Assembly (NCBI GenBank): GCA_003024785.1
Contig: PUQB01000192.1
Location: forward strand, 190,962 to 254,961
Direction of reading: 5' to 3'
DNA from: Selaginella tamariscina
Taxonomy: Eukaryota; Streptophyta; Lycopodiopsida; Selaginellales; Selaginellaceae
Length of the DNA stretch: 64,000 nucleotides
Below, one piece after another: positions 19,626 to 48,116 of this stretch. Under the pieces are notes generated by a model that was given only the letters and a program-made list of their open reading frames with translations, did not search any database and had not been told where the DNA came from. Positions within the stretch are counted from its first letter, which is position 1, and each line of letters starts with the position of its first letter. The position numbers and the translations under genes are program-made.

Positions 19626-19919
19626 ATGCACGTTGTAACTAAATGGGCATGATACGTGAAAATGGGAATATAAAATAAATTACTAATTAATAGTTTTAAT
19701 TATTATTAATTAATATTGTAATTAAGCCTTAAATATTAATTAATTAATTAATTAATCCTTCAATAACCTTACTTAGTAAGGAATATTCCTAAAATATCTT
19801 AGAATATTCATATTATTCTAAAAATAGTTTACAATAATGAAGAAATACTATCAAACATAATTACAAATGAAATCATTTTCTTATCAACATGTTAATTTTT
19901 TATAAATACTTTCTTCCTA

Positions 19920-21124: not shown

Positions 21125-21330
21125 GTTCTCAATTTTCATTACATCTGCAAAATGATAATTAGCTGACCTTAAAATTATCAAGGTATATTATTTACCTTGT
21201 TAATGTGTGACCCATGTTTGAACTAAAAGCTTCATTAATCCTTGAGAATTTATTTTCTGTACAAATATAAAAAATATACAAAAATGCCTTATGTTACACT
21301 CATTTACAACTATTCGTCACTCTAAATTCA

Positions 21331-24300: not shown

Positions 24301-24376
24301 GATTAGTTCTCAAGCACATATCCGAGTATAACAGATTTTATTTTAATTCTTACCCAGAATTTGACGACGACTCCAT
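21331..24376 (-). pseudogene. ParB-like/methyltransferase-like gene (T1 copy)
   Basis: Same gene as 31,352-34,422 in T2, described there. Frames are broken at different places than in T2. Kept stretches include the LTWLKPLNGTTMEEME region, TVRHFKEWLGIHCHKLGW and VNQSEDLGKNLLHANAKKEN (22,618-22,196). Also kept are VHVFTNDVDLGVLLQLNE (about 23,975-23,920), KYYIISGQHTITAAQRLLDE (about 23,310-23,250) and the acidic tail ending EEEF at 21,331. T1 preserves about 60 bases near 22,583-22,640 that in T2 are replaced by telomere-like sequence. The intron at about 22,945-23,005 also contains a GGCGAGATAAATCCCGCC palindrome variant. Confidence 0.6.
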
Positions 24377-24708
24377 ACTAATGACTCGATCTCCTTGTTT
24401 ATTAAATCGTCCTTCTGCAAAATAATACACTATGAATACAAATCATATAAAAACGCACACACACTTGTATAAACCCGAATATACAAAAATAATACACAGA
24501 GAGAAGTAGACGAATTAACTGTCCAAACTCACATTTGTGCTAGTGCAAAAGAAAGATAACATTTCGTTTTAGAACCACCACAAATGTGAGCTCTGGACAG
24601 TTTTACATAGACTGCTTTTACTCGAAATATTATGATAAGATGATAAAAGTAAATAAAATGAAATGCAACTTATATATACTAATACACATATATATTCACA
24701 TGGAAGGT

Positions 24709-25705
24709 GCGGCGGGATTAATCTCGCCACCCCTTCAGCCTCTGAAAGGTGGCGGGATTAATCCGCACCCTTCTCGATTTCACGAGAGAACTGGGCAGGA
24801 TTTATTTCACACCCCTTCAGTGACTCCAGAAAGGGCGGGATTAATCTCGCCCACCATGTAATGGATGATGAAATGAATCCTCCACCCTTCTCGTCCCCTT
24901 GGTATGTTGTAAACCTTCTACGTCTTAGACAGAAAGTTTGGGATTGGTCCGACTCACCAATGGAGGAAAAAAAAGGGTGGCGGGATTCATTCCTCCACAG
25001 GCATTGAAGGCTCGGCGGGATTAATCCCACCGCCCAGGCCCTTCATGCGGTGGGATTAATCCTGTCGGATTCCGTGCAGGGATGGGCGTGCGGCGGGATT
25101 AATCTCGCCGCCCATGGCCTGCGTGCTGGGCCTAGACAGTGGGATTAATCCCACCGTCTACGCATGCCCTGCATGGAATCCGGCGGAATTAATCCCATTG
25201 CACGCCCATGCCCTGTGCGGAATCTGGCGGGATTAATCCCGCTGCCTAGGCCCTTCAGACAGGCCATTGGCGGCGGGATAAATCCCGCCGGATTCTGCAT
25301 AGGGCATTCATACGCGGCGGGATTAATCCCACCATCTAGGCCCAACACGCAGGTCATGGACGACGGAATTAATCCCGCCGCATGCCCATGCCCTGCACGA
25401 AATTCGGCGGGATTAATCCTGCCGCCTAGGCCCTTCAGACAGGCCATTGGCGGCGGGATAAATCTCGCCGGATTTTGCATAGGGCATGCGTACGCAGCGG
25501 GATTAATCCCGCCGCCTAGGCCAGCACACAGGTCATGGGCGGCAGGATTAATCCCGCCTCATGAGGATAACCGAATAGCCTGCCTGAAGGCGGCGGGATT
25601 AACCATATAGCAGCGGGATTAATCCTGTCGCCCACGTGTCTAACCATATAGCAGCGGGATTAATCATGTTGCCTGCGGGTCTAACCATATAGCAGCGGGA
25701 TTAAT
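24709..25705. repeat. Palindrome array 1 (T1)
   Basis: More than 20 copies of GGCGGGATTAATCCCGCC or near variants (CGGGATTAATCTCGCC, CGGGATAAATCCCGCC, CAGCGGGATTAATCCTG). They are spaced about 40-65 bp with spacers such as CCTAGGCCCTTCAGACAGGCCATTGG and ATGCCCTGCACGGAATCCGG. It starts about 330 bp upstream of the start of the minus-strand ParB/methyltransferase gene. Spacers of neighbouring units are themselves partly inverted repeats. No protein is likely, although the repeat yields spurious ORFs rich in GGINPA and GLIPP. Confidence 0.9.
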
Positions 25706-25847
25706 CCCGCCGCTACACACATATATATATCTATATGTATATGTGTGTGTAGGAGAGTGCGTGTGTGTGCAAGAGATAAAATTAATAAATTAATAAAATT
25801 ATACAGATACACAAACACACACACATAGATATATGTATATATATATC

Positions 25848-25890
<43 letters not shown>

Positions 25891-28018
25891 TATGTATGTA
25901 TGTATGTATGTATAGGAGTGCGTGTGTGTGCGAGAGATAGATAAATAAATTATATTATTAAGATACACACACATATAAATGTATATGTGAATCAAAATAA
26001 ATAAATAAACTCAGGAGTGTGCATGTGTGTGAGAGAGAGGAGAGAGATCTCACCTGTGTGTGAAGAGAGAGGGAGATTTCACAGCCGCCGCCTCCGCCGC
26101 CTTGCTTCTTGAACCCTAAGAATATACCAAACCTTAAAAGGAATAGAAATATATATTAACCCTAATCAAATATTCCTTCTAAGAATAACTTAAACCCTAA
26201 AAAAGAATAAAAAAGATAGATTCGCCCTAAATGAATATTCTTTCATTTATATTATCAGCGTGTGCGTGTGCGTGGGTCAACATACACCCCAAGGATAAAA
26301 ATCGCAGGGGTTTAACATGTGTGTGTCCATGAGAGTGTTAAAGTTTCACATGCAGCAATACATATATACACACATAGTATTATATACATAGACATACATA
26401 CATATTAGTACATATTAATATTAGAGAGACATTATGGATCATGCATGGTGTGTATAGAGAAGAGAGAAAGTGTTAACAAATTAAATTCATACACATTGCA
26501 TATATTAGTACACATATATACATACACACGTGTATACACACAGACATACATATATTACATGTGTAAATTCAATGTGTTACATACACACAGACTGAGTACA
26601 TATATATCATACATGCGTTGAACATGATGTTTTTCAATAAAGAAGCAACATATAATTTCAAGTTTGGTTTAGGGCAATGTGCATATGTGCATATGTGTCT
26701 TGTAAGTTCTTCTAATGCGTGTGCATGTGTATATATAAATTTATGATTGTGTTTATATATGTGCAAAACAAACATCGAATAATTAAGAAAAATAATATTA
26801 ATAAACACACTATGAACATATTTTAAATTATACATAATAATATATGATTTATTTAATATATAGCCATATATAGTTTTAATAAATAATATTAATTTAATAT
26901 GATAATAAGGTTTAACACTAGAATATTCTTGAAATAATAAGAATTTAATTGAGAAAATCCCATTAATATACAAATGTAGATCAAGTACTGAAATAATTAA
27001 CTAAATTAATTATGATAATCATGTTTAATATTGGAATATTCTTGGAATAATAAGAAATAATAAGAATATCCCATTAATAAAGAAGATTAATTACTCAAGT
27101 AATTAAGAAAATAATATATACACACTAAACATATTTTAAATTATATATAATAATACATCATTTTATCTAATATATAGTCATATATAGTTTTAAATATATA
27201 TATTAATTAATATAGATAATAAGGTTTAAGAATTAAATAATTAAGAATAAGACTAATTTAATTTTGATAATCAGTTTAATATTGGAATATTCTTTCAATA
27301 TTAAGAAAATAATAAAGAATATCCCATTATAGTAGAAAATGTAAATTAATTACTTGAGTAATTAAGAAAAATAATAATAAACAAACTATGAAATATTTAA
27401 ATAATACATAATAATATATCAATTTATTATTTGTAAGTATATATATTTATAATATATTTAATAATATACTAGAATATTCAGAATATAGAAAATTACTAAA
27501 ATTTCGTAATATTAAAAGCTTGAATCACTTGAATGACATTAAATGCAATTTTAAAACATTCATTGAATTGGAGAGTAATATGTCAGAGTGTCGGTTATTT
27601 GTTTCAACTCATCTTAAATTTTCTTTTTTATTATTTTCAAAAATTTTGACTTTCTGACAAAGTATTGTCTGACATATAAATTTGAAAATGCATTTAATTT
27701 CCCACTTAAATTCAAATCTGGTTCTTTCTCCAGCAAGAGTTTCATTTTTTTATTTTTTACTCTTCAGATTTTCTTTTTCTTCTTAGTGATTAGCTCAGGA
27801 GCGACATTAAATTGGGTGCGTTATTGTTTATAGGAAAGCACGGCGCTTCAGTGCTGTTTACAAGTAAGTATATAAACAAATTTAGATATAGTTATAAATC
27901 ACTCTCTTACATTCTCTCTTAAATTTAGAATTTAGGGTTTAGGAATGCATTAGGATTAAAATATTCCATTAGGGATTTATCCCGTTTAAATATATTTCTA
28001 ACTTAATATTGTTGGTTA
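25706..28018. other. T1 AT-rich central spacer
   Basis: It opens with ATATAT/GTGTGT microsatellites (25,710-26,060). The short GC-rich CAGCCGCCGCCTCCGCCGCC follows (26,081-26,100), then AT-rich sequence with scattered CACACATATATACATACACA words and a few GGATCATGCATGGTGTGTAT units. It corresponds to 36,094-39,690 in T2. No gene is supported. Confidence 0.7.
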
Positions 28019-28019
28019 G

Positions 28020-28880
28020 CCGGGGCGGCGGGATTAATCCGACCAATTTTTTTTCGCTTCACGGGATTAATCCCGCCACCATTTCTTTGATAGTTATGGC
28101 AAATTAGTCCGGGCAATGCTTCTCCGTCTCTTAAAAGAGCGGTGGGATTAATCCGCCGATAACTCTCTTAACTGATAAAGAGTTACTTGAATTTATTAGA
28201 AAGAGTTATCTACGGGATTAATCTCGCCAACCATTTTAGGAGGCAGAAAAGGGGTGGCGGGATTAATCTCACCACCACTTCCCTGTTTAAATATTTGTGG
28301 GCAGATTTATCCTGAGATCTTTTGAAATCATAGCTTCGAAGAGAGTTGTGGGCGGGATTAATCCCGCCGCCTATTCCCTGTCATCAGAGTTGTGGGCGGG
28401 ATTAATCCCGCTCCTCTTCCTCGTCGAGGGATTTGCGGCGGGATTAATCTCGCCGCCTCTCTTCGACGAAGAAGATCCGGCGGTGGGATTAATCCCACCA
28501 GTACTTCCTTGTCGGAGGGAGTCCACGGCGGGATTAATCCCACTGCCTCCCGACGAGGAAGATTCGGGGGCGGATTAATCCCGTCGCTCTTCCTCGTCGA
28601 AGGAAGTCCGCGGCGGGATTAATCCCACCGCCTCTCTTCGACGAGGAAGATTCTTCCTCGCGGGAGGGAATTGGCGGCGGGATTAATCCCGCCGACTCTC
28701 TCCGATGGGTAGAGTCGATGACGGGATTAATCTCGCTGACTCTCTTTAAAGGGGTAGCTTCGTCGGCGGGATTAATCCCACCAAACTCACTCCGAAGGGG
28801 TAGAGTCGGCGCGGATTAATCCTGCCCATCGTTCCTCGTCGGAGGGAGTCGTGGGCGGATTAATCCCGCCCATCAGTTAT
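28020..28880. repeat. Palindrome array 2 (T1)
   Basis: About 16-18 copies of the same 18-bp palindrome core (many one-base variants). The spacers are different from array 1: CTCTTCGACGAAGAAGATCC, GACTCTCTCCGA and GGAGGGAGTCC types. It ends about 150 bp upstream of the start of the plus-strand DUF7869 gene. Units are more diverged than in the T2 equivalent (39,690-40,552). Confidence 0.9.
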
Positions 28881-29014
28881 ATAATAAAGCATGAGATATC
28901 ATCTAACATAATTAGTATTATTGCACATGCTATTATAAGCAACCGTAGTTATGATTTCTTAGAAATATTGCATAAACAAATATCATAAATAACACAATAT
29001 TTATGTGCAGACAA

Positions 29015-29659
29015 TATGTAAATACTGGAGATAAAGTATGTCTTTTTGGAACAACGAGATAGTCGGCACTGGAACTGTGGAAGTTCGAGATAATAATGCA
29101 TCATGTCACAATATTGCCCGGATCTTATGTGTACCTATGGATGAACACCATTACAAGCATGTTGAGGTTCCGGAATGGAATTTGAGGAGTCTCCTGTATT
29201 GTGAATTGGATGAAGCAAGGCTGACACAGAATATGCAAGTCACAAACAAACAATAGCAACGAATTTCAGATATGGCTTGCCTGCTGTGATGGATAGTGAT
29301 TCTCTTTCTTCATGAAATGAGGTTGGGAGAGGCATCACATAGCTATAAATCCAATGGAAGCAATGTCAGAAAGAAACTAGGGTCCGACTTCGTGGGTGTA
29401 GTTGGTGACAGAGGTTTCACCTAATGCACATTGCATCCTGGTCCCTCGTGAGGTGGCGAACATTTGAATTAAGACGGCAAGATGGTCAACATATTCTGGT
29501 TGATTTTAATAAAACAACCCGAAGAACAACCATATTTGAAGAGGTTCCTTGCATTGGTCCTATGTAAAAAAAAGGCAATTCATGGTTGCAATCTTCCTCT
29601 GCAAGTTTCAGCAAGAGGGTGAAGATGATCGTACATCTTCTGAAAGTGTTACGAGCATT
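29015..29659 (+). pseudogene. DUF7869-like gene, 5' part (T1 copy)
   Basis: It matches T2 40,690-41,378: GDKVC, NNEIVGTGTVEVRDNNASCHNI, YKHVEVPEWNL, then frameshifted counterparts of the second N-terminal repeat (VGRGI.TAINPMEA, about 29,318-29,360). Compared with T2 it has many 1-3 base gaps. The gene is cut after GTTACGAGC by T2, with target duplication ATT (29,657-29,659). The rest of the gene continues at 44,325. Confidence 0.75.
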
Positions 29660-29686
29660 ATGCACGTTGTAACTAAAGTGGGCATG
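29660..29686 (+). repeat. T2 left terminal inverted repeat
   Basis: Pairs with 44,295-44,321 over 27 bases with two mismatches. The T1 left end at 19,626 has the same sequence minus one G. Confidence 0.88.
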
Positions 29687-29943
29687 ATACGTGAAAATGG
29701 AATATAAAATAAATTACTAATTAATACTTAAGTTTAATTATTAATTAATCATTTAATTAATATGTAATTAAGCCTTAAATATTAATTAATTAATTAATTA
29801 ATCCTTAATAACCTTACTTAGTAAGGATATTCCTAAAATATCTTAGAATATTCATATTATTCTAAAAATAGTTTACAATAATGAAGAAATATCAAACATA
29901 ATTACAAATGAAATCATTTTCTTATCAACATGTTATCTTTCTA

Positions 29944-31148
29944 TCATACAAAAAATCTTTTCATTTTGTCTAAATCATCACTCTCCGGATTAATCAAATC
30001 ATCATTTTGGTCAATATCTTGATGTTGTTGCCACCACTTAACACTCTCACGAATGCAATTGGAGTTGCCATCCTTGTTAACATAAGATTGATAAGAGAAG
30101 CTGCATAAAGCTCATCTAAAAACTGACGTTCCTTAAAAAATATTATAAAGCGCCCGGTTGCTATCCTTCATTTATAAAATTCAAAATCACGAGAAAGAAA
30201 AGCTTCAGGAAATGTATGATACGGTGGATACTGCTCACAAAAATTTTCGAGATTCTTCTTTCTGAGGCACGTATCCAAGTAGTTCACTAGCTCATCCATG
30301 GATATCGATCAGAATATGGATCGAAAAGTGATTGGATGAATACAAGCAATGTTTTGGTTGAGCATAGCCTTCTGAGGAGAGTCGTCTACTACTAAGATAT
30401 GTGCATTCTTCGTCCTTAAGCGACTGATCTCCCCATGAGTCCCAATTATTCTTTCATTCTTGAAGAAGTATGGCTTGCTTTCCTTTCTTATATTGAAATT
30501 CGAGAGGTTTATGACACATTCGCTGGTCAAAAATCCAATCTTTACGAATCACCTCTTCTGCAACACTACAATGCTTAAGTAAACTCAACAGCGGTGTTAA
30601 GTTATGAATCTGCATGCATGACCAAATCCCCACAAGCGCACCCATCTCCTTAAGCTTTGAAAGAGACGATCCAACCCTGGACGAAAAATAATATCATATC
30701 GAAATTTACCATGACAAGGAATGAAATCTCCTTGTTTGATTTCTGTTTTTCTATCCCGGGCCTTTGTCGATGAAGCAGAACACCATTGACATCCAACAAC
30801 ACAATATGGCCATGAGTAACATGAGATAGCGTTGCCTCTTGAATACTTTGCAAATCACTTGTTTGCTCCCTTTCACATTTATCCGTTGCCACTATTTCGT
30901 TGCCTATCCCTTCATCATTTAATTGTACATCATCCTTACACAAGATTCAGATATTGCATGCGCTGAAGAAATTGATTTCGGAATGAAGCCAATAAAAATG
31001 ATGATGCAAAAACTGAAGTGGCCCCCATGGTAACGATGTTTGAGCTGCATTATTATCCATTTCCTGCATGAACTCTGTCATTCTGACATGTGGCACAAAA
31101 ATTGTCGCCAAACCCCTCTCTTACCTCATGGCAATGCTGAAAATCCAT
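29944..31148 (-). CDS. FCP1/NIF-like HAD phosphatase (T2 copy)
   Basis: A minus-strand gene with the architecture of the FCP1/NIF (TIM50-like) branch of HAD phosphatases. An acidic N-terminal region has EREQTSDLQSIQEATLS. Motif I is HIVLLDVNGVLLHRQR (about 30,810-30,765), followed by CHGKFRYDIIFF and GALVGIWSCMQIHNLTPLL (about 30,642-30,590). RKDWIFDQRMCHKPLEF follows, then YFFKNERIIGTHGEISRLR and MLVVDDSPQKAMLNQ (about 30,400-30,355). The C-terminal RESVKWWQQHQDIDQNDDL ends at TGA, 29,944-29,946. The conserved catalytic D (motif I) and DDSP (motif III/IV) are intact. Such enzymes usually dephosphorylate RNA polymerase II CTD or related substrates in the nucleus. The proposed start is the ATG at 31,148. 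Several small indels, placed differently from T1, interrupt the frame; a short intron near 31,120 is possible. Confidence 0.65.
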
Positions 31149-31351
31149 GTTCTCAATTATTTCATTACATCTGCAAAATGATAATTAGCTGACCTTAAAA
31201 TTATCAAGGTATATTATTTACCTTGTTAATGTGTGACCCATGTTTGAACTAAAAGCTTCATTAATCCTTGAGAATTTATTTTCTGTACAAATATAAAAAA
31301 ATATACAAAAATGCCTTATGTTACACTCATTTACAACTATTCATCACTCTA

Positions 31352-34300
31352 TCAATTCATTATCAATTCTTCTTCGCTATTACCTTCTGAATGAGGCGAA
31401 GAAGGTCTAAGCCGCTTGTGAGATGGTTCAAGATCTTCTGCATCTTCTATTGATGTTTCCATGGGTCCTGGAGTGTGCGAATGTTCTGTACTCCTCGAGA
31501 TAACTTCCGGTCTAATATCTGATTGATGTTCGTTCTCAGACTCCGAGATTGAACCAGATTCACCTTCAGAGGCAACTTTCTCAAATACGCCTTTATGGAT
31601 CGTTGGGGTACTCAGTTGAGACCCAATCTATCCACTTGTTCAGGTCCTCAACCATGGTCTTATCCTTCTCAACGGCAAACACACATGTATGCCGAAGGTA
31701 ACACTCCTTCAAGACGGACCCCCTAGTGCAGTAGTCAAAAACCCACGCATCACTGTGAGGACCCCTGATCAAGTTGACGATGCTCCGTGCCGCTTGACTT
31801 GTAATGTTTGGATAACGTACATTGCCGAATACGTCACTCATACCTATCGGTGTATCGGATGGAGGTTCAGGGCCGTTGGAGTGCAAACAGATGCCTGGCC
31901 AGTCATTTGGAAGCTTGAAATTGTTTGGCGCATTCCTAACAACCAAGTGAACAACAGTATCAATGCACTTGGGATTAGCATCGTTCATATAAAATCCTGT
32001 CCAACGATGTCTATTCTTCTTGGCGAAGGCGAAGGCAAAAGTATCGGTGACATGAGCAAGAATCAAGAAATAAATACCTGAAAAAGTAGGTATCAGTGAA
32101 GAGCGCAAGCATGAATTCAATAATAAATACCTTCTATGTATATGCTTGCACGGCTAAGTTTCTCCACCAGATCCTCTAGTGCCCTATCTGTCGAAAGATT
32201 TTTTGACACCCGCCGATCCATCACGAACAATTGAAACGGTTTCCTACAAGCAGTGATGTTACCCCATAAAGTCTCCGAATCTAACAACAAACATCTGTAG
32301 GGCTTGTCGTGATTCGTAGCATCCTCCTTTATAAGGTTCAATTCGGTTCTCCGCTGCTGAAGGACTGCCATAAGAGAAGGCGTCATCCCAATGTTCTCCT
32401 TTTTGGCGTTGGCGTGCAATAGATTCTTGCCTAGATCTTCCGATTGGTTCACCCATTCGACAAGCATATCATCGTTCGTCACATGCAAATATTTGCTAAC
32501 CTCTTCATATGTTGAAGTCGAGGTTCCAACCCAGTTTGTGGCAGTGTATTCCCAACCACTCCTTGAAATGCCTGACCGTCTTCAACTCCATTGCCTTGAG
32601 ATGAAAAGGAGAGGTTGGGTTTAGGTTTGAGGGTTTAGGTTTGGTTTTACCCAAACCCTAAACCCTTCCATCTCCTCCATCGTTGTTCCATTTAAAGGCT
32701 TCAACCATGTGAGCTTGAAATCGTTGTTTACATCCTTTGTAGATTGAACAGACTTAGCCTTCGGCGTCTTACTGGGTTTCTTTGCAGACTTTTCTGAGGG
32801 CTCCCCTTCACTTGTCTGCTTCTTCTTCAGTGTTCCTTTTGAAAAGGATTCCATAATCCCCAACCATTTGGCAAAGATCCTATCTTCGGGGCAAGAAATC
32901 AACATCATCGAAATGATGTTTCCTTCCCGCCCACCTGGGAAAATCAACTGCTGCAATTTCTTCAACTCTCTGAGGAAAAAGACAGATTAATAACCGGCGA
33001 GATAAATCCCGCCCAAACAATTTGCTTACCCGGTATTCCGCAGATTGTGTATTTCCTGCGGTAGCTCTTTGTGGTCGCTGAAGAGATTCCCACACGGCTC
33101 GCGTGTGTTTAAACTTCTCCCATATTTGTTGTTGTAGTGGTTGGTGTCGGCAGCGTCCCATTCCGCCGATAACTTATGGTACTGCTTGATTGTGAGATTC
33201 GGCTTAGCTAAAAACGCCGATCTTTTTGTCAGCTTCTCACGGGTATGCTCGGAAAGTTTTGTTGCCATCGTTCCTTTGTTGTGTTCATCGAGAAGTCGTT
33301 GGGCTGCCGTTATTGGTGCTGGCCACTAATGATGTAGTACTTGATAGATCTTTTATTCTCCGTCTGAATCTTCATGAGTTGTTCTGGTGTTGTGATCCAG
33401 ACTTTGTCAGCACCCTTCCTTCTTTCATAGTATGGACACAAAACAGCATTATGTGGAACGGTATAAGAATTGTCGTCCTTCATCTTCTCCATGAGCTCAG
33501 CTACACGTTCCTGGTTGAGTGGCCTGTAATTGAAGTTTGGGTTGACGCTGCAATATTTAACCCTACAAGGATAAATCTTATCATCCAACATCATTTCCTT
33601 GTGACTTATTGCAGCATGAGATGCCACAGGTGCAGCTGACAAAACGATTGATGATTTTCTTTTGCGATCCGAATCAACATGTGTGATCCCCGACTGCAGC
33701 TGTTCTAGTGTTCTCGGCACACTCCTCCAGCTCCCGAACTTCCTAAGCAAATTGAACGTGATCTGTAGAGAACCTGAGACCGAGCCACCTTCTCAATCTC
33801 CCTTATGATGTCGCTGTGTTCTTCTTCAATGTCAAGAGGGAGATTGCTCCACTTGCTGATTTTCTGTATTGTGAAACAATATCTTCTGACAATACACCTA
33901 CTCGATGAGTCTGAAGATCTTCGAAGTAGACATCCAGATGGATCCCCTCCATAGATGGGCTTTCGTTGAGTTGAAGAAGAACTCCAAGGTCAACATCATT
34001 AGTGAACACGTGAACATCATTATCCACAAGTCGACAAAACCACCCGAGATTAATGTGTAACTGACGACCTCTGGATCCGAGAACGTGACATTGGATGGAA
34101 CAAGGCATATCTGTCGAGCATCGTCCAATCTGGGTTCGCAGCCTGCTTTCGGGTGCTTGACTAGCGAATCTACTTTCCATTGTTTTGCTTGTCCATGAGA
34201 TGTGACAGAGGTTAATTTAAGCAACCATGGTTGCTCCAATGCGCTTCCCATTTATCTTAAAATATGGCCAAGTTGATCCAAAATCCCCTGCCCATCTCTT

Positions 34301-34422
34301 CTCCTGCTCTTGTCTTTAATGTCACTTCAATTCCACATCTGAATACAAAAATGATTAGTTCAAGTATCCGAGTATAACAGATTTTATTTTAATTCTTACC
34401 CAGAATTTGACGACGACTCCAT
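31352..34422 (-). CDS. ParB-like plus SAM-methyltransferase-like protein (T2 copy)
   Basis: Exon 1 starts at the ATG at 34,422 (MESSSNSG) and ends at a GT donor. Further introns are 33,029-32,970 and about 32,135-32,083 (GTATTTATT...TTTTTCAG). The central region has FNYRPLNQERVAELMEKMKD (about 33,535-33,480) and, after about 55 residues, KYYIISGQHTITAAQRLL. This is the layout of the ParB/Srx nuclease-like fold, with GQH in place of the usual G-H-R. A lysine-rich linker follows. The C-terminal third ends with DAWVFDYCTRGSVLKECYLRH and CVFAVEKDKTMVEDL, which resemble the closing motif I strand-loop-helix of beta-class N6-A/N4-C DNA methyltransferases. No clean DPPY motif is seen. An acidic tail ends at 31,352. 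ParB-methyltransferase fusions are known from phages and plasmids. Frames are broken by small indels and by the telomere-like patch at 32,615-32,668. Confidence 0.55.
32615..32668. repeat. Telomere-like inverted patch in T2 gene
   Basis: GGGTTTAGGTTTGAGGGTTT followed, after a short centre, by ACCCAAACCCTAAACCC forms an imperfect hairpin of plant telomere-type words. T1 has unrelated coding sequence here (about 22,583-22,640), so the patch replaced roughly 55-60 bases in T2. Confidence 0.75.
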
Positions 34423-34756
34423 ACTAATGACTCGATCTCCTTGTTTGATCAAATCGTCCTTCTGCAAAATAATACACTATAAATATAAATTATATAAAAA
34501 CGCACACACACTTGTATAAATCCGAATATACAAAAATAATACACAGAGAAGTAGACGTAATTAACTGTCCGAAGCTCACATTTGTGTTAGTGCAAAAGAA
34601 AGATAACATTTCGTTTTAGAACCACCACAAATGTGAGCTCTGGACAGTTTTACATAGATTCCTAGCTTTTACTCGAAATATATGATAAGATGATAAAAGT
34701 AAATAAAATGAGATATGCAACTTATATACTAATACACATATATATTCACATGGAAG

Positions 34757-36093
34757 GTGCGGCGGGATTAATCTCGCCACCCCTTCAATGCCTCCTGAAA
34801 GAGTGGGCGGGATTAATCTCGCCACCTTTCTGGAGGCCTTGAACGGGAGTGCGGAATTAATCTTGCCACCCTTCTCGGTCTCAGAGAGAACTGGGCAGGA
34901 TTTATTTCTCACACCCCTTCAGTGACTCCAGAAAGGAGGCGGGATTAATCTCGCCCACCATGTAAGGGATGGTTAAATGAATCTCCCACCTTCCCAGTCC
35001 CCTCATTGGTATGTTGTAAACTTCTACGTCTTAGACAGAAACGTTTGGGATTGGTCCAACTCACCAATGAAGGAAAAAAGGGAAGGGTGGCGAGATTCAT
35101 TTCTCCAACAGGCATTGAAGACTCGGCGGGTTAATCCGCCGCCCAGGGCCTTCACTCGATCCCTATGCGGCGGGATTAATCCCTCCGGACGCCAATTCCC
35201 TGCGCGGAATCGGGCGGGATTAATTCCGATGCCTAGGCACTTCAGGCAGGCCAATGGCGGCGGGATAAATCCCGCCCGATTCCGCGCAGGGCATGCGTAC
35301 ACGGCGGGATTAATCCCGCCCACCATGTAAGGGATGGTGAAATTAATCCCACCACCCTTCTCGGTTCCCTCCATTGGTATTTTGTAAACCTTCTCCGTCT
35401 CAGACAGAGTTACGCGGGATTGATTCAACATACCAATGGGATAATGAAGGTTCGGAGATTAATCTCGCCACCGGTAATGAAGGTTCGGCGGCTAATCCCG
35501 CCGCCCTCTCGTAAATCATGCGCTCACACATATATATTGGCTGCGGCATTTTTGAACAGGGATGGGTGGGGCGGGATTAATCCCGCCGCCCAGGGAATTC
35601 ACGCAGGACATGAACGGCGGGATTAATCCCCTGGGCGGCGGGATTAACCCATCGGCGAATTCCCTGGGCGGCGGGATTAATCCGCCGCCCATGGCCTGGT
35701 GAGGGGCCTCGGCGGCGGGATTAATCCCGCCGCCCATTCCCTCTAAATGCCCTGCGCGGAATCCGGCGGGATTAATCCCGCCCATTAGAACCTTCACACA
35801 GGCCATTGCCGGCGAGATAAATCCCGCCGCATTCCGCGCAGGGCATGGATGAGCGGCGGGATTAATCCCCGCCGAGGCCCCTCACGCAGGCCATGGGCGG
35901 CGGATTAATCCCGCCGCTCTTCGGTTTGTCGTAGAGCGGCGGGATTAATCCCGCCGCCCATAGCCTGCGTGAAGGGCCTCGGCGGCGGGATTAATCCGCC
36001 GCTCACCCATGCCTGAAGGGCCTCGGCGGCGGGATTAATCCCGCCGCCATGGCCCCAACTATAGCGGCGGGATTAATCCCGCCGCTCGAGGGG
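34757..36093. repeat. Palindrome array 1 (T2)
   Basis: Around 25-30 copies of GGCGGGATTAATCCCGCC and variants, with spacers such as CCATGGCCTGCGTGAAGGGCCT, CATTCCGCGCAGGGCATG and TCGGTTTCGTAG types. It starts about 335 bp upstream of the ATG of the minus-strand ParB/methyltransferase gene. The best-kept units (35,570-36,090) are flanked by mirrored spacer halves, so palindromy extends well beyond 18 bp. The array is longer than its T1 counterpart (about 1.34 versus 1.0 kb). Confidence 0.92.
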
Positions 36094-36774
36094 CTTAGCG
36101 AGATAAAAACACACACATATATATATGTGTGTGTGTATATATATGTATGTATGTATGTATGTATAGGAGTGTACGTGTGTGTGCAAGAGATAGATAAATA
36201 AATAAAATTATACAGTACTGGTACACCTAATATATGTGTGTACATAGGTATATATGTGTGTATATGTATATCGTGTGTATGCGTGTGAGCGAAACAAATA
36301 AAATCATACAGATAAACAAACACACACACACACATATATATATACACAGGAGTGTGCGTGTGTGTGCGAAAGATAAAACTAATAAATAAATAAAATTATA
36401 AGATAAACACACACATATATATGTGTGTATATAGATATATAATCTATAGAGAAAGAGAGAGAGTCTGTGAATATATAAGCATATATATAAACTAGTGTTG
36501 TATGTATGTATATATGTATATAGGTATATATATATGTGTATATGTATATTGTGTGTATGCGTGTGTGAGCGAAACAAATAAAATCATACAGATAAACAAA
36601 CACACACACACACACACATATACATACACAGGAGTGTGCGTGTGTGTGCGAGAGATAAAACTAATAAATAAATAAAATTATACAGAAAACACACACATAT
36701 ATATATGTGTGTATATAGATATATAACCCATATGAAATATAGCATATATATAAACTAGTGTTGTATATAATATA

Positions 36775-36807
<33 letters not shown>

Positions 36808-36871
36808 GCAGTGCGCGTGTGTGTGGAGAGATAGATCAATAAAAAAAAATTTACAGATACTGGTACACATA

Positions 36872-36932
<61 letters not shown>

Positions 36933-37220
36933 GCAAGATCAATAAAAAAAATTTACAGATACTGGTACACATAATATATGTATGTATATATGTATATAGG
37001 TATATATATATATATGTGTATATGTATATCGTGTGTATGCGTGTGTGAGCGAAACAAATAAAATCATACAGATAAACAAACACACACCCACACACACATA
37101 TACATACACAGGAGTGTGCGTGTGTGTGCGAGAGATAAAACTAATAAATAAAATTATACGCACACTCCTATACATATATACATACATACACACACACACA
37201 CACACAGATCTCACCTGTGT
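36094..37220. repeat. Higher-order microsatellite block (T2)
   Basis: CA/TG and TA runs are embedded in a larger unit: a GTGTGTATGCGTGTG..GCGAAACAAATAAAATCATACAG landmark recurs at about 36,270, 36,550 and 37,030, each followed by ACACAGGAGTGTGCGTGTGTG. Pure runs include (TG)n at 36,778-36,803 and 36,893-36,927. No gene. Confidence 0.85.
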
Positions 37221-37595
37221 GCACAGCCGCCGCCGCCGATTTCACAGCCGCCGCCTCTTGAAACCCTAAGAATATACCTAAACCCTAAAGGAATTAAATA
37301 TATATATCAACCCTAATAGAATATTCCTTCTGAGAATATACTTAAACCCTAAAAAGAATAAAATATAGATTCGCCCTAAACGAATATTCTTTCATTATAT
37401 TATTAGCGCGTGCGTGTGCGTGGGTGTATCACATACACCTCAAAAATATAAATCATGCAGGGATTTAACATGTGTGTGTCCATGAGAGTGTTAAAGTTTC
37501 ATGTGTATCAATACATACATACACATTGCATATATTAATACACATAATATATACATACACACGTGTATACACACAGACATACACACATATTACAT

Positions 37596-37620
37596 GGGTT
37601 TAGGGTTTAGGGTTTAGGGT
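37596..37620 (+). repeat. Interstitial telomeric repeat
   Basis: Three and a half TTTAGGG units, the Arabidopsis-type plant telomere motif, inside T2. Confidence 0.9.
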
Positions 37621-38060
37621 TTTGGATTTAGGATGGATCATGCATGGTGTGTATGTATGAGAGAAGAGAGAGTGTTGAAAAATTATTTTTGTACACATTG
37701 CATATATTAGTACACATATATACTTACACATATTATACACAGATATACATACATAGTATATGAGAGAAGAGAGACAGTACATATTATGGATCATGCATGG
37801 TGTGTATTATACACACAGACATACATACATATTAGTACATAATATTAGAGAGACCGAGTACATATTATAGATCATGCATGGTGTGTATGTTTGAGAGAAG
37901 AGAGACAGTACATATTAACATGGATCATGCATGGTGTGTATGTATGAGAGAAGACAGAAAGTACACATATATACATACAGAGTACACATATATACATGCA
38001 CACGTGTATACACACAGACATACATACATATTACATGAGTAAATTCATTGTGTTACATAT

Positions 38061-38089
38061 TAGGGTTTAGGGTTTAGGGTTTAGGGTTT
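38061..38089 (+). repeat. Interstitial telomeric repeat
   Basis: Four TTTAGGG units inside T2; the homologous region of T1 does not show them, so they were probably gained in T2 or lost in T1. Confidence 0.9.
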
Positions 38090-39689
38090 GCTCCCAACAA
38101 GCTTAATATAAATATTACACATGTAAATTCAATGTGTTACATACAGTCACACAGATTGAGTACATATATCATACATGCGTTGAACATGATGTTTTCAATA
38201 AAGAAGCAACCTATTTCTTCAGTTTGGTTTAGGGTTGTGCATGTGTGTGCATATGTGTTTTTGTAAGTTCTTGTAATGCGTGTGTAAATTTATGATTGTG
38301 TTTATATATGTGTGCAAAACAAACATCGAATAATTAAGAAAATAAAATTAATAAACACACTAGGAACATATTTTAAATTATACATAATAATATATGATTT
38401 TATCTAATATATAGCCATATATAGTTTTAATAATATATATTAATTTAATATTGATAAAAAGGTTTAACATTGAAATATTCTTGAAATAATAAGAAATTAA
38501 TTGAGAAAATCCCATTAATATATACAAATGTAAATTAAGTACTCAAATAATTAACTAAATTAATTATCATAATCATGTTTAATATTGGAATATTCTTGGA
38601 ATAATAAGAAAATAATAAAGAATATCCCATTAATATAAAGAAGATTAATTACTCAAGTAATTAAGGAAATGATATTAATATATTATTATTAAAACTATAT
38701 ATGACTATATATTAGATAAAATGATGTATTATTATGTATAATTTAAAATATGTTCATAGTGTGTATTAATTTAATATTGATAATAAGGTTTAACACATGA
38801 ATATTCTTGAAATAATAACAAATTAATTGAGAAAATCCCATTAATATATACAAATGTAGAATAATTACTGCAATAATTAAGAACAAGACTAATTTAATTA
38901 TGATAATCAGGTTTAATATTAGAATATTCTTCAAATATTAATAAAATATTAAAGAATATCCCATTGATACTAGGAAATGAAAACTAAATACTCGAGTAAT
39001 TAAGAAAATAATAATAATAAACAGACTATGAATATATTTTAAATGATACATAATAATATATCAATTTATTTATTGTATAAGTATATATTTATATATATAT
39101 ATATAATATAAATATACTTGAATACTAAGAATGTAGAATATAGTCTAAAATTTCGTAATATTAAACAGCTTGAATCACTTGAATAACATTAAATGCAATT
39201 TTAAAATACTCATTGGAACTGGAGAGTATATATGTCAGAGTGTCGGATATTTGTGTCAACTCATCTTAAATTTTATTTTCTGTTCTTTTTAAAAAATTTG
39301 AATTTCTGACATATGTATTGTCGGTCTGACATGTAAATTTGAAAATGCATTTAATTTCCCACTCAAATTCAGATCTGGTTCTTTCTCCGGCAAGGGTTTC
39401 TTCATTTCTGTATTTTTCACTCTTTAGATCTTCTTTTTTCTTCATAGTGATCATCTCAGGAGCGAGATTAAATTGGGTGCTATTCTTTATAGGAAAGCAC
39501 GGCGCCTTCAGTGCTGTTTACAAGTAAGTATTATAAACAAATTTAAAAATACTTATTAAGATTCACTCTCTTACATTCTCTCTTAAAATTACAATTTAGG
39601 GGTTTAGAAATGCATTAGGATTATAATATATTCCGTTAGGGATTTATCACGTTTAAATATCCTTTTAACTTAATATTCTAGGTTAACCG

Positions 39690-40552
39690 GGGCGGCGGGA
39701 TTAATCCGGCCATTTCTTTTTCGCCTCTTTGAAGAAGTGGCGGGATTAATCCCGCCACCATCTCCCGGGCAATGCTTCTCCGCCACTGAAAAAGAGTGGC
39801 GGGATTAATCCCGTCGATAACCTTCTCAACTGATGAAGAGTTACCAGAATTTATTAGAAAGAGTTGTCGGCGGGATTAATCCCGCCAACCATTTTAGGAG
39901 GCAGGGAAGGGGTGGCGGGATTAATCTCGCCACCACTTCCCTGTTTTAAAGATTTGGGGACAGGATTTATCCCGAGATCTCTTTGAAATCATAGTTTTGG
40001 AGAGAGTTATGTGCGGGTTTAATCCCGCCACCCATTCCCCGTCGTAAGAATTGTGGGCGGGATTAATCCCGCCTTGGACTCCCTCCGACAAGGAAGAGCC
40101 GGCGGGATTAATCCCGCCGCCTCTTCCTCCGACGAGGAAGGGAGTCCGGCGGGATTAATCCCGCCGACTCTCTCCGGCGAGGATGAGTCGGCGGGATTAA
40201 TCCCGCCGGACTCCCTTCCTCGTCGGAGAGAGTCGGCGGGATTAATCCCGCCGGACTCCCCGAGGAGGAAGAGGCGGGATTAATCCCGCCGGCTCTTCCG
40301 TCGGAGGGAGTCCGGCGGGATTAATCCCGCCGACTCTCTCCGAAGGGAGTCGGCGGCGGGATTAATCCCGCCGGACTCCCCCGAGGAGGAAGAGGCGGCG
40401 GGATTAATCCCGCCGGCTCTTCCTTGTCGGAGGGAGTCCAAGGCGGGATTAATCCCGCCGACTCTCTCCGAAGGGGTTGAGTCGGCGGCGGGATTAATCC
40501 CGCCGACCGTTCCTCGTCGGAGGGATTCGTGGGCGGGATTAATCCCGCCCAT
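39690..40552. repeat. Palindrome array 2 (T2)
   Basis: About 18 copies of GGCGGGATTAATCCCGCC, many perfect from 40,055 on. Spacers alternate GACTCCCTCCGACGAGGAAG-like and GACTCTCTCCGAAGG-like sequences. Because spacer halves are complementary (GGAGTC...GACTCC), single units extend to 30-50 bp near-perfect palindromes. It ends about 150 bp before the first in-frame ATG of the plus-strand DUF7869 gene and about 145 bp before the splice-acceptor-like TTATGTGCAG (40,688-40,697). Confidence 0.93.
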
Positions 40553-40703
40553 CAGTTGTATTAATCAAACATGAGATATTATCTCTAAACATAATTATGT
40601 ATTATTGCATATGCATATTATTAAGTAACCGTAATTCAGATTTCTTAAAAATATTGCATAAACAGATATCATAAATAATACAATTATTTATGTGCAGGAC
40701 AAT

Positions 40704-43541
40704 ATGTTTAATACTGGAGATAAAGTATGTCTTCTTCGGAACAACGAGATAGTTGGCACTGGAACTGTGGAAGTTCGAGATAATAATGCATCATGTCACA
40801 ATATTTCCCAAGGATCTTGTGTGTACGTATGGGTGAACACCATTTACAAGCATGTTGAGGTTCTGGGAATGGAATTTGAGGAGGGTTCTCCTGTATTGTG
40901 GAATTTGGATGAAGTCAAGGCTGACACAAAATATGCAGAGTCACAAACAAATAGTAGCACGAGTTTACCAGATGATGGCTTGCCTGCTGTAATGGATGAG
41001 GTGATTCTCTTTCTTCGTGAGATTGAAGTCGGAAGAGGCATCATCACAGCTATAAATCCAATGGAAGCAGTGTCAGAAGAGAAACTAGGGTCCGACTTCG
41101 TGGGTGTAGTTGTGACAGAGGTTTCACCTAATGGCACATTGTATCCTGGATCCCTCGTGAGGTGGCGAACATCTGAATTAAGACGGCAAGATGGTTCAAC
41201 ATATTCTGGGTTGGATTTCAATAATAACAACCCGGAAGAACAACTCATATTTGAAGAGGTTCCTTGCATTGGTCCTATTGTAAGAAAAAGGCGATTCATG
41301 GGTTGTAGATCTTCCCCTGCAAGTTTCAGCAAGAGGGTAAAGATGGATCCTACATCTTCCGAAAGTGTTACGAGCATTTCCACGATTGACTGTTGCAAGA
41401 AGAAGTGTTGTCAGATGGCAGACCGGAATGAAATTACCCAATGTAGACATGTCTTTCGTATGCTCACCCAAAAGCAAAGGCATGAGTTTGTATATGCTGC
41501 ACTAACTGGGTGTATTGATGGAATGGCCTCGGACACAGGTTATCAGAGTACATCCATGGTATTTAATAAGGTGGCCATCTGCTTCAAAGCTTGGTACAGT
41601 ATATACGGGATCCCAAAGACCACGTTCTACCGTCGGAGGGATGAGTGGCTAGATGGAGCGCGAACCTCAGTTCATGGGAACACTGGCTTGGTCAAAACCC
41701 GCTCTCACATCATGGCAGCCATAGAGATACTCAAGGCTTTTGTGGAAGCAAATGCAGACAGGATGCCTCACAAATGCCGAACCACAAATGCAGGGGTCAG
41801 GGAAAATCTCAAGGTTTTACCTTCAATCTACACTCAATTGAAACTGTGTGAACATGTGAACAAGTGCCTCAGTTTGATGGGGCTCCAAGCAATCTGCACT
41901 GGTACCTTCAACAACATATGGAATACTCATTTTAAGGATGTGGAGATTGCAAAACACTCTAGCTTTTCTAAGTGTGACACTTGTACATCATTGAAGGCTG
42001 CAGAGGCTTGTGCAAAAACCTTGGTGGAGATCACTACCATTCAAAGGAAGATGGAGGCCCACATGATTGCACAACAAACTTGTCGGTCTCAGTACTATGC
42101 ACACCGCATGCTTTCTGTGTCACGCCCATCAGAGTACCTGTGCTTGATCCATGACAAGATGGATCATTCAAAGACCAGCATTCCAAAGCTCTTTGCAACA
42201 CCAAAGTGCCTTGGAAATGTCATGAAACTTCCGATTTCTTTAACAGGTGTGCTAACACATGGACACGGTTGTGAGTCATATGGACACTTTTCACTTCCAC
42301 ATTGGTCTAGCGACTCCAATTTCACTATTGGGTCGTTAGCCATGTGTTTCAGAAACCTTGAAGCCCACTCACAGACAAGTCCTATCAGTGATCTCAAAGT
42401 GAAGAAACAACACCTTCAACCTTTACATAATGCTCTCATGAACACGTCTGCACTTGAGGCTACTTGGGAATATGAGAGGCATTGTCAGCAACCTGCACAA
42501 AAAACAGATGGCCCTGTTGAGAGTTCAGGTTCAGTGGAGGGATCTAGCTCAAATAGTGTACATGTGTCCTCAACATCAAATAAGCTTCCTCGTCATTTGC
42601 TTTTACAGATGGATAATTGTGCAGGCGAGAACAAAAATAGGTAAATCATTTTACTTAAGGGTTTCTCAAGCTCATACTTACTTTTATTTTCTAGATATGT
42701 GCTAGCATACTTGTCAATGCTTGTTGCCAAAGGTGTGTTTGAAACAATCACGCTCAGTTTCCTTATGGTTGGTCACACTCATGAAGATATTGATGCGTTC
42801 TTCAGCAAGGTCTCCAACTCTACAAAAAGGACAAGTGCACTTACCTTACCGCATATGATGAATCTTTTTGAAAATTGCATCTCCAAAAAAAGTTGTGCTT
42901 TGCTTGTGACTGAGGTGCCAGACTTCAAAAAATTTCTCAAGGAGTATATAAAAGAAGGGAGTGATTCTTTAGTTGGTCACCTTGTGCCGCTACAATTCTT
43001 TTTCTCCATACGAGATGGTATACCTATTATGCAGTACAAGTTACGGCCATCAGAGCAGGAGTGGTTACCGAAAGAGGGCTTAATGCTCTTCAAAAGTGGA
43101 GAGGATGGAAAGCCACTTCTCCCAGAAGGACAACCAGACCCTATTCCATTGAGTGCCCAGCTCAAGGAACAAGAGGTTATTATTGATGGCATCAAAAAAT
43201 ATGTGGCATGGGTTCAAAAATCGATGCCAAAGAATTCTGATAAGGCAACTGGTTACTCAGAACTATATAAGCATGTGGTCAACTATTGGGAGACTGTTGT
43301 TCGAGAGTTGGAAGGGCCTACTGTCACAAGTACAGAATTGCAACACCCTTTCTGGCCTAAAAACAAGTGGCGAGAGGAGATTGAAATGACATCACTGAGC
43401 ACAGACGACATAGAAGCCAGTAGTGATGTGGAAGTGCAAACCCCACACTTTGTTGAACAAAGGAACCAAAAACCTAAAGCATACTTTGAGGATCTTCAAA
43501 AAACTAATGATGGTTCTCATTACTCCAGATGCGTCATATAA
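40704..43541 (+). CDS. DUF7869-like protein, candidate transposase (T2)
   Basis: Two exons (40,704-42,640 and 42,695-43,541) join across a 54-bp GT-AG intron, giving about 927 codons. The start ATG at 40,704 (MFNTGDKV) follows a TTATGTGCAG acceptor, so an upstream leader exon is likely. The N-terminal 170 residues hold two related beta-rich repeats (KVCLLRNNEIVGTGTVEV; RGIITAINPMEA...GVVVTEV) like those in plant En/Spm-type proteins. A Cys/His-rich zone (DCCKKKCCQ, SKCDTCTS) follows. The DUF7869-type core has LIHDKMDHSKTSIP (about residue 480), LLQMDNCAGENKNRYVLAYL (about 635-655) and FLMVGHTHEDIDAFFSKV (about 670). The acidic residues in these three blocks are spaced as in RNase-H-fold nucleases. 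Past the stop, frameshifted coding continues (YNQPIWMGQIID, VKVAWF to about 43,725), so the true C-terminus is about 55 residues longer. Confidence 0.7.
42641..42694 (+). other. Intron in DUF7869 gene
   Basis: GTAAATCATTTTACTT to TTTTATTTTCTAG, 54 bp. Removing it joins AAT AG / A TAT, giving the conserved ENKNRYVLAYL across the junction. The equivalent region is deleted in T1. Confidence 0.85.
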
Positions 43542-43725
43542 TCAGCCTATTTGGATGGGTCAAATTATCGACACCCTGAAGTAATCACAAAAAATAGTAT
43601 TGTTAAGGTTGCATGGTTCAAAACCACAAAAAAGGCGACACGAGAAGGAGAGCGAAAGATATAATGGATGCCTAGAGAAAACATGGTCTCCCAATCAAAA
43701 AGACCCAGTATGTTTTATAAATGTT

Positions 43726-44294
43726 AAATCCATTCGATATGGGTGATGTCAAGAAGCGTTGATAAAGTCACGATTAACAAAACTGCAAGGGAATGTATGT
43801 TTTCTGAAGCTTAAAGCAATTACAAAATTATAAAATATCATATATTTAATATTCATAATTATTATAAACTCTTTAATAATAGTACCAAATTGTATACTTA
43901 ACTATATAAATTTAAAAAATGATATGGAAGATTAACTATATTATTATAGGATTTTATATATATATTATTACTACTACAAATTTTTAATTAATAATGTTAT
44001 ATTTAAATATTAATATTTTAATAACAACATCAATATTTATATAATGTACCTCTTATGCTCTTCCTTAATTGTTATATTAGGCAATATATTATATAATTTA
44101 ATACATTCTACTTTTATAATGTTATTAATTTTTGTTCAATGAATGCTATAATTTATTAAAGGGTAGATTACAAAATAGAATATTCTAAAGAATATTCTCT
44201 TTTCAAACATATATTCTAAAGAATATTCCTTTAATATTAGAAAATGCTAATTAAATAGCTAAAATTGCTAATTATTAAGAAATGGGACTATAGC
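43726..44294. other. T2 right subterminal region
   Basis: AT-rich, no ORF of note. It contains several AATATTCT/AGAATATT words (44,180-44,245) similar to those near T2's left end (29,830-29,880), which may be subterminal binding motifs. The TIR starts at 44,295. Confidence 0.5.
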
Positions 44295-44321
44295 CATGCC
44301 CATTTTAGTTACAACTTGCAT
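44295..44321 (-). repeat. T2 right terminal inverted repeat
   Basis: CATGCCCATTTTAGTTACAA then CTTGCAT. Reverse complement matches the left end with two mismatches over 27 bases. Confidence 0.88.
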
Positions 44322-44324
44322 ATT

Positions 44325-45535
44325 TCCACGATTGACTACTGCAAGAAGAAGTGTTGTCAGGTGGCAGATCGGAATGAAATTACCCAATGTAGACATGTCT
44401 TTCGTACGCTCACCCAAAAGCAAAGGCATGAGTTTGTATATGCTACACTAACTGGGTGTATTGATGGAATGGCCTCGGACACAGGTTATCAGAGTACATC
44501 TATGGTATTTAATAAGGTGGCCATCTGCTTCAAAGCTTGGTACAGTATGTACGGGATTCCAAAGACCACGTTCTATCATCGGAGGGATGAGTGGCTAGAT
44601 GGAGCGCGAACCTCAGTACATGGGAACACTCGCTTGGTCAAAACCCACTCTCACATTATGGCAGCCATAGAGATACTCAAGGCTTTTGTGGAAGCAAATG
44701 CAGACACAAATGCAGGGGTCAGGAAAAATCTCAAGGTTTTGCCTTCGATCTACACTCAATTGAAGCTGTGTGAACATGTGAACAAGTGCCTCAGCTTGAT
44801 GGGGCTGCAAGCAATCTGCACTGGTACCTTCAACAACATATGGAATACTCATTTTAAGGATGTGGAGATTGCAAAACACTCTAGCTTTTCTAAGTGTAAC
44901 ACTTGTACATCATTGAAAGCTGCAGAGGCTTGTGCAAAAACCTTGGTGGAGATCACTGCCATTCAAAAGAAGATGGAGGCCCACATGATTGCACAACAAA
45001 CTTACCGGTCTCAGTATTATGCACACCGCATGCTTTCTGTGTCACGCCCATCAGAGTACCTGTGCTTGATCCATCAGCATTCCAAGCTCGTTGCAACACC
45101 AAAGTGCCTTGGAAATGTCATGAAACTTCCGATTTCATTGATAGGTGTGCTAACACATGGACACGGTTGTGAGTCATATGAACACTTTTCACTTCCACAT
45201 TGGTCTAGCGACTCCAATTTCACTATTGGGTCATTGGCTATGTGTTTCAGAAACCTTGAAGCCCACGATATTAATGCTCTTCAAAAGTGGAGAGAATGGA
45301 AAGCCACTTCTCCCAGAAGGACAACCAGACCCTATTCCATTGAGTGCCTAGTTCAAGGAACAAGAGGTTATTATTGATGGCATCAAAAAATATGTGGCAT
45401 GGGTTCAAAAATCGATGCCAAAGAATTTTGATAAGGCAACTAATTACTCAGAACTATATAAGCATGTGGTTGACTATTGGGAGACTGTTGTTCGAGAGTT
45501 GGAAGGGCCTACTGTCACAAGTACAGAATTGCAAC
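44325..45535 (+). pseudogene. DUF7869-like gene, 3' part (T1 copy)
   Basis: It continues T1's gene after the T2 insertion and is very similar to T2 41,378-42,366. Differences are informative. One 24-bp in-frame deletion falls between two CACAAATGC repeats (at 44,705). A net 24-bp loss removes DKMDHSKTSIP (at 45,075). A deletion of about 710 bp at 45,266-45,270 removes the intron, MDNCAGENKN and GHTHEDID. A 370-codon frame (44,265-45,377), opening inside T2's terminus, stays open across the first two deletions. The gene and T1 stop at about 45,535, where R1 reverse transcriptase sequence begins after a CCCTAAACC stretch. Confidence 0.75.
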
Positions 45536-45539: not shown

Positions 45540-45760
45540 AACCAAATTTCAAGTCTATTCTTGAAAAATACTTTGCTGTCAATAGCCTATTAAATAAGTC
45601 GTCCACTCACGAAAGAAGATACTTATTTTTGATAGTTATCACGTTCAGCGCTCGATAGTCCACACACATTTGCATTGTACTATCCTTTTTTATTACAAAC
45701 AAGATCGGTGTACCATACGGTGATCGACTAGGTTGAATGTGTCCTCAACCAATCAATTCT
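45540..45760 (-). pseudogene. R1 reverse transcriptase, 5' part
   Basis: The minus strand gives [40 protein letters not shown], then after a shift NRLLTAKYFSRIDLKFG, the first third of a Ty3 RT. It stops at the T1 junction. The remaining palm (YxDD) and RNase H are missing on both sides of T1. They were therefore deleted together with T1's right end. Confidence 0.8.
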
Positions 45761-46510: not shown

Positions 46511-46619
46511 TCCCCTCGTATCTTTCCTGTCAAATATAGCAAAGGGTTAGTTTTGTCTTGAATAACGAATAAGGCATGTTGTGTCTAGCACAACATTACC
46601 TCTTCTGACTCATTTGCTG

Positions 46620-46745
46620 AATCTTCATACATTTCTGGTTCAGCAACTTCCTCTTCTACCATTGCCTTGAAATGACCCGATTGTTGTGAGGGTGCCCAAC
46701 ATTCTCTAGCAAAATGTCCAGGCTTGTTACAATTATGACATTTTG
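46620..46745 (-). pseudogene. R1 gag zinc knuckle
   Basis: CHNCNKPGHFARECW (46,740-46,697) is a perfect CX2CX4HX4C nucleocapsid knuckle, followed by an acidic stretch (AMVEEEVAEPEMYEDS). It binds element RNA in the family. Both upstream and downstream frames are broken. Confidence 0.85.
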
Positions 46746-46869
46746 GAACTTCACTTGTGGACTGCAGGGGAGCAGACTTTGGAGTTGAGCCCTTGGCATG
46801 CTAGGTGGTGGTAATGCTAACAGTTTTTGAGATCCAATGGGTTTTGATGTATCCAAAACTTGGAACTGC

Positions 46870-48000: not shown

Positions 48001-48102
48001 AACTATGTCAATCAAAAGCAATAGATTAGATTAAGAATTTAGAATTTCTAAACACTGAAACACCCTGTGACTTAAGGTAGTCCTATTGACCGTAAAGAAC
48101 TT

Positions 48103-48114: not shown

Positions 48115-48116
48115 AT

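Follow-up and report, generated by a model that had tools for sequence, protein, structure and literature searches.

A 14.7-kb terminal-inverted-repeat transposon family in Selaginella tamariscina with a DUF7869 candidate transposase, two companion genes and palindrome arrays

The window analysed here, a 64,000-nucleotide stretch of the Selaginella tamariscina genome, contains a 14.7-kb DNA element, T2, with terminal inverted repeats (TIRs) and both ends intact. With moderate confidence, we interpret T2 as a complete-ended member of a family of about 14-15 kb that makes 3-4-bp target duplications. Its DUF7869 protein would be the transposase, two accessory genes lie on the opposite strand, and its arrays would be bound by one of its own proteins, controlling expression or countering silencing. 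TIR transposons carrying accessory genes are already known; what is new here is the candidate DUF7869 transposase together with a NIF-like gene and arrays of a palindrome.

Limits of T2 and its nesting in an older copy

The left terminus of T2, ATGCACGTTGTAACTAAAGTGGGCATG, began at 29660, and the right terminus, ATGCAAGTTGTAACTAAAATGGGCATG when reverse-complemented, ended at 44321. The two inverted repeats were identical at 25 of 27 bp, and a 3-bp target duplication, ATT, was present on both sides. T2 is inserted in the DUF7869 gene of T1, an older copy of the element, and has an uninterrupted version of that gene itself, so that the empty site could be read within the window as gttacgagcATTtccacg, with ATT at 41376. 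The ends, the 3-bp duplication and the empty site given for T2 in an earlier note on this DNA were therefore borne out. From the left, the element carries the NIF-like gene (minus strand), gene 2 (minus), array 1, a spacer of microsatellites and A+T-rich DNA, array 2 and the DUF7869 gene (plus). The features are as follows.

19626..29659, plus strand: left part of T1, with its terminus, NIF-like gene, gene 2, two arrays and the start of its DUF7869 gene
29657..29659: ATT, left copy of the target duplication, read in the sequence
29660..44321: T2, TIR DNA element of 14.7 kb, both ends intact
29660..29686, plus strand: left terminal inverted repeat, 27 bp, the same in 20/20 fetched copies (selected by this terminus)
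29950..31081 (limits approximate), minus strand: NIF/FCP1-like HAD gene, by match to Pfam NIF
31352..34343, minus strand: gene 2, called ParB/methyltransferase-like in the earlier note, at least three coding exons, 5' limit approximate
34761..36083: array 1, 5' of gene 2, with seven exact units of the 18-bp palindrome GGCGGGATTAATCCCGCC
39694..40549: array 2, 14 exact units of the same palindrome, on the 5' side of the DUF7869 gene
40704..43541, plus strand: DUF7869 gene, candidate transposase, by Pfam DUF7869 matches
41376..41378: ATT, uninterrupted target copy in T2's own DUF7869 gene, the empty-site sequence
44295..44321, minus strand: right terminal inverted repeat, from the sequence and genome-wide right-end matches
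44322..44324: ATT, right copy of the target duplication, read in the sequence
44322..45535, plus strand: remainder of the T1 DUF7869 gene, about 710 bp missing inside, right end lost

The TIR core GTTGTAACTAAA was found three times in the window when up to one mismatch was allowed, and all three occurrences (T1 left, T2 left and T2 right) were exact. The expected number was 0.44, and three occurrences were reached in 1 of 100 shuffled sequences. A chance pairing of repeats as the origin of T2 was ruled out by the copies, the ends and the duplications.

T1 began at 19626, was broken at 29659 by T2 and resumed at 44322, with the same gene order as T2. Approximately 977 bp were gone at its right end, in addition to the gap of about 710 bp within its DUF7869 gene. 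By eye, the flanks of T1 (18500-19625 and 45540-48300) resembled a Ty3/gypsy pol gene interrupted by T1, with an integrase-like stretch on the left and a reverse-transcriptase-like stretch on the right. The parts between these stretches seemed to be missing, so the event that removed the right end of T1 may have taken retrotransposon DNA too. When the T1 DUF7869 piece at 28900-29659 was aligned with T2, 28 gaps (27 of them short) were counted in 795 columns, and three in the next 993 columns; this gap noise may stem from assembly rather than decay.

Copies across the genome

The 300.7-Mb assembly containing the window was searched with both ends of T2. The left-end search, in which 40 of 1,283 first-look candidates were scored and the element started at query base 61, gave 41 places; 33 of them started at query bases 54-61. 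Among the other places, the window itself and copy L009 matched the flank too, five started at bases 22-51 and one was a partial inverse match. In the right-end search (40 of 2,802 first-look candidates scored, element end at query base 161), 39 of 40 places stopped at bases 161-180, and the 40th was the window itself. The family with common termini anticipated in the earlier note was thus found in many copies, whose matches stop at or near the element ends.

We fetched 20 left halves, 18 right-end stretches and the remaining part of five copies. The left terminus, by which the copies had been selected, was present in every left half. The right terminus was recognised by its pattern in 13 of the 18 right-end stretches; the pattern was absent from the other five, and in two of these, L034 and L035, the alignments reached to 6 bp or less from it. 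Three of the five copies read through measured 14.8-14.9 kb, L028 measured 14.2 kb and L027 about 15 kb.

Target duplications could be tested at 13 insertions (12 copies and T2); the right end of L027 was excluded since its adjoining bases were not readable. Duplications of 4 bp were found at seven insertions (L010, L011, L012, L013, L016, L024 and L028) and of 3 bp at two (L026 and T2), and matching flanks were absent at four (L009, L018, L020 and L022). At least seven four-base matches in 12 would arise by chance with a probability of about 4e-14. The 3-bp duplication described earlier therefore holds for T2, but among the testable insertions 4 bp was commoner.

Some places departed from this pattern. 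Copy L009 (G000:C726) had the left flank of T2, a T1-like DUF7869 gene cut at the same position, but its right flank differed; the nest may have been duplicated, the same site may have been hit twice, or the region may have been rearranged. At L044 (G000:C1259:43400-44900), where the right end of L019 was expected, the sequence instead matched T2 bases 692-2187, in the left part of the element, which suggests nested or adjoining copies. The first-look candidates, which are unverified, were about twice as numerous for the right end as for the left, and shorter relatives sharing the right end are possible.

Palindrome arrays

The arrays, absent from the earlier note, are the most striking feature of the element. 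The window held 23 exact units of the palindrome, 21 in T2 and two in T1, with none elsewhere. Genome-wide, 27,128 exact copies were counted, and the reversed control sequence gave 0. Among the matches listed (100, in the first 2.08 Mb of contig C1), there were six cluster pairs, four lone clusters and one lone unit; the paired clusters in this list lay 3.0-3.8 kb apart, compared with approximately 3.6 kb in T2. All four lone clusters, when fetched, were inside other, mostly older copies of the family: three (L052, L053 and L054) at about 87-93% identity, and L055, an old copy with many stops, at about 77%. Each of the five copies read through contained 24-33 exact units. From these counts and the 21 of T2, the genome-wide total corresponds to an estimated 950-1,300 copy equivalents, or 14-19 Mb, about 5-6% of the assembly.

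The spacing of the units peaked at 44-46 bp (574 units with up to four mismatches, in 20 copies, T1 and T2). Information content was 1.2-2.0 bits per base in the units and 0.01-0.54 in the linkers, with the linker maximum beside the palindrome; picking units with up to four mismatches exaggerates this difference in conservation. Ordinary tandem repeats were ruled out, as the linkers between units are near random. The observed/expected CpG ratio was 1.0-1.2 in the arrays versus 0.4-0.7 in the genes, but from CpG decay no clear difference in methylation could be read, such as lower methylation of the arrays.

Most likely, a protein of the element itself binds to the arrays. The gene 2 product is the first candidate, because gene 2 adjoins array 1 and has no other evident role. 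Such a protein would bind the palindromes and, since the arrays stand on the 5' sides of two divergent genes, could control both. By analogy with VANC of VANDAL21, it might control expression or counter host silencing. VANDAL elements are Mutator-like transposons. In VANDAL21 of Arabidopsis, as far as the available portions of the two sources report, the dense motif arrays of the noncoding parts are bound by VANC, which causes methylation to be lost (PMC5735166; PMC10398659). Like T2, VANDAL21 carries several genes, and a single short motif is densely repeated in its noncoding sequence; however, its motif, YAGTATTAY, is non-palindromic and arrayed in one orientation, according to the portion available (PMC5735166). 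The parallel is a functional analogy, and the family described here may join VANDAL as a second example of several genes and densely arrayed motifs in one transposon.

The main alternative, which we consider doubtful, is that a host factor uses the arrays as enhancer or promoter repeats. Their position 5' of two divergent genes would suit such repeats, and the core GGATTAATCC, a palindromic TAATCC, can be read as a homeodomain-type site. However, arrays this dense would in our judgement be unusual for a host factor, and the four lone clusters all belong to the same transposon family, so that no host use was seen in this small sample. Our preferred reading, binding by a protein of the element, also has a bolder form that we regard as speculative and rather unlikely. 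In that form, the DUF7869 proteins would be an undescribed transposase superfamily, and the gene 2 product, a decayed ParB-methyltransferase turned binder, would coat about 20-30 palindromes per copy and approximately 27,000 genome-wide, keeping some thousand copies from silencing or acting on all of them together.

The candidate transposase and the companion genes

The DUF7869 gene comprised an open frame of 660 aa, a short GT-AG intron near 42641-42694 (by eye) and a second exon, open for 298 aa in T2 and 392 aa in L011, L024 and L028. Its two exons matched Pfam DUF7869 (PF25273) with E values of 2.6e-12 and 6e-27 (47.2 and 94.9 bits; cut-off 26 bits). Relatives found in a database search numbered 81; those with a named source come from Riccia, Physcomitrium, Ceratodon and Holothuria. 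Sixty of them were aligned: D353, D485 and D527 were conserved in 59, 60 and 59 sequences, respectively, and H523 in every one. The unfiltered all-pair pN/pS was 0.41. The earlier note had named this protein the best transposase candidate, and the Pfam matches and the three near-invariant aspartates support that choice. It is likely a transposase of the DDD type (RNase-H-like), a triad reading that rests on conserved residues D353, D485 and D527; the protein would act by binding to the TIRs and moving the element by cut-and-paste, with cuts staggered by 3-4 bp. When solved structures were searched by profile, only three chance-like matches to a potassium channel were obtained (E 0.76-0.87); in a scan of viral contigs with the DUF7869 profile, 159 stretches matched a pattern, none of which was confirmed. 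The term DUF7869 was not found in the literature searched, and the matches listed there for the letter string VGHTHED were unrelated.

Academ and CACTA/EnSpm transposons make 2-4-bp target duplications and can be long elements with accessory genes. The T2 family resembles them in its short duplications (3-4 bp) and accessory genes, but DUF7869 was the sole Pfam family above cut-off in the T2 transposase gene, and the T2 termini do not have the CACTA start. Zisupton elements, of the KDZ group, make 8-bp target duplications, and KDZ transposases are unlike DUF7869. KDZ elements are large transposons that, in fungi, often have accessory genes, according to the available part of PMC12477816. Compared with known transposase superfamilies through Pfam, the DUF7869 transposon may turn out to represent a new one. 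A domain of unknown function is now linked to a TIR element, and because the ends of this element are secured by many copies, transposase activity of DUF7869 becomes testable.

Gene 2 was read from stop-to-stop stretches of 478, 304 and 248 aa in L027 and of 304 and 273 aa in L018, separated by GT-AG introns (by eye); the joined reading was 969 aa. After filtering, which removes divergent stretches and so favours low values, pN/pS was 0.19-0.31 in all 20 pairs compared between subfamilies, and these pairs are not independent of one another; the unfiltered all-pair values were 0.54, 0.32 and 0.50 for the three exons. Gene 2 is under constraint at the protein level. No ParB or methyltransferase match was obtained in Pfam at E values up to 10, where the HMMER filters drop most weak matches, nor in PHROGs and NCBIfam at E up to 5. 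A sequence search of PDB gave nothing convincing, a search of 5.8 billion proteins gave no supporting match, and tblastn in phages gave matches at E 7 only. Two PDB entries (6xr1 and 6xr2; 2.3e-4 and 0.054) matched 39 residues of the second part of the protein; they are designed repeat proteins (dTor), and the matches were taken as chance. The ParB fold plus methyltransferase assigned earlier was thus unsupported by any profile or database search, and its basis is visual inspection of motifs: NPNFNYRPLNQERVAELMEKM and IISGQHTITAAQRL resemble ParB/Srx motifs, and VFDYCTRGSVLKECYLRHTCVFAVEKD resembles a SAM-binding motif. A DPPY-like catalytic motif was not seen by eye, and a DSET stretch stood where it might be. 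The failed searches may reflect strong divergence; if the protein is related to ParB and methyltransferases, its catalytic motifs look decayed. By eye, we read gene 2 as encoding an orphan protein resembling ParB and a decayed methyltransferase.

ParB-methyltransferase accessory genes have already been reported for Sola1-1_Ec32 of Ectocarpus and related algal transposons, and T2 may be a parallel to them. As described in the accessible part of that report (PMC12477816), Sola1-1_Ec32 is likewise a DNA transposon of large size that encodes a transposase and, on the opposite strand, a long accessory gene, there interpreted as combining a ParB-like domain and a DNA methyltransferase. It differs in that its transposase is Sola1 rather than DUF7869, and in that gene 2 lacks a ParB or methyltransferase profile match; the NIF-like gene and palindrome arrays found here are unmentioned for the algal elements in that part of the report (PMC12477816). 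The earlier note's statement that no described plant DNA transposon has this combination was uncontradicted in the literature searched, but the class of accessory gene is known from algae. It is unlikely, in our view, that gene 2 encodes a still active enzyme of the brown, green and red algal transposon class that modifies the element's own DNA. The motifs seen by eye would fit such an enzyme, as would the strand opposite to the transposase and the length of 969 aa, compared with 1104 aa in the Ectocarpus Sola1 element (PMC12477816, from the part available); the missing DPPY-like motif and the failure of all of the searches above argue against it.

The NIF-like gene has broken frames in T2 and longer open frames in L018 and L020. 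A merged T1/T2 reading matched Pfam NIF (PF03031) at 6.1e-12 (45.9 bits; cut-off 21.8 bits), and a reading joined from fetched copies matched at 1.6e-11 (44.6 bits). NIF/FCP1-type HAD phosphatases are expected to have a D-x-D catalytic motif. T2, L019, L020 and L027 read LLDVNGVLL, with D-x-N in place of D-x-D, which makes phosphatase activity doubtful; the protein is probably non-catalytic. The FCP1-like phosphatase proposed earlier thus stands as a NIF-type HAD domain but is doubtful as an enzyme. Of the 20 inter-subfamily pairs, 15 had enough codons, and their filtered pN/pS ranged from 0 to 0.74; the unfiltered all-pair value was 0.58.

All three genes occurred in the same order in the five copies read through (L011, L018, L024, L027 and L028), with frames broken in places; in L028, about 1.1 kb covering the last exon of gene 2 and the start of the NIF-like gene was lost. 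With more than 100 residues mapped, the NIF-like gene was found in 20 of 20 left halves and the first large exon of gene 2 in 18 of 20, missing in L023 (an insertion of about 7 kb) and L025 (rearranged). The linkage of the three genes that the earlier note drew from T1 is thus supported. The companion genes may help the element to control its own activity; escape from host silencing, as the earlier note proposed, is possible. As assembled, neither the NIF-like gene nor gene 2 is open in T2. Frame breaks in T1 and T2 as a sign of dead genes were rejected, given the longer open frames in other copies and short gaps that differ from copy to copy. That the two genes are passengers, captured from the host and without a role in the element, is very improbable: the NIF domain is a common host family and several copies, T1 and T2 among them, have broken frames, but the genes keep their order in every copy read through, both occur in both subfamilies, gene 2 is constrained, and many of the breaks, short gaps at different places in each copy, resemble assembly noise.

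The insertion in L023 was a stretch of about 7.2 kb (about 2007-9171) within the left part of the copy. Between subfamilies, pS in the NIF-like region was about 0.005-0.06 versus 0.085-0.13 in gene 2, as if left ends had been exchanged between the subfamilies.
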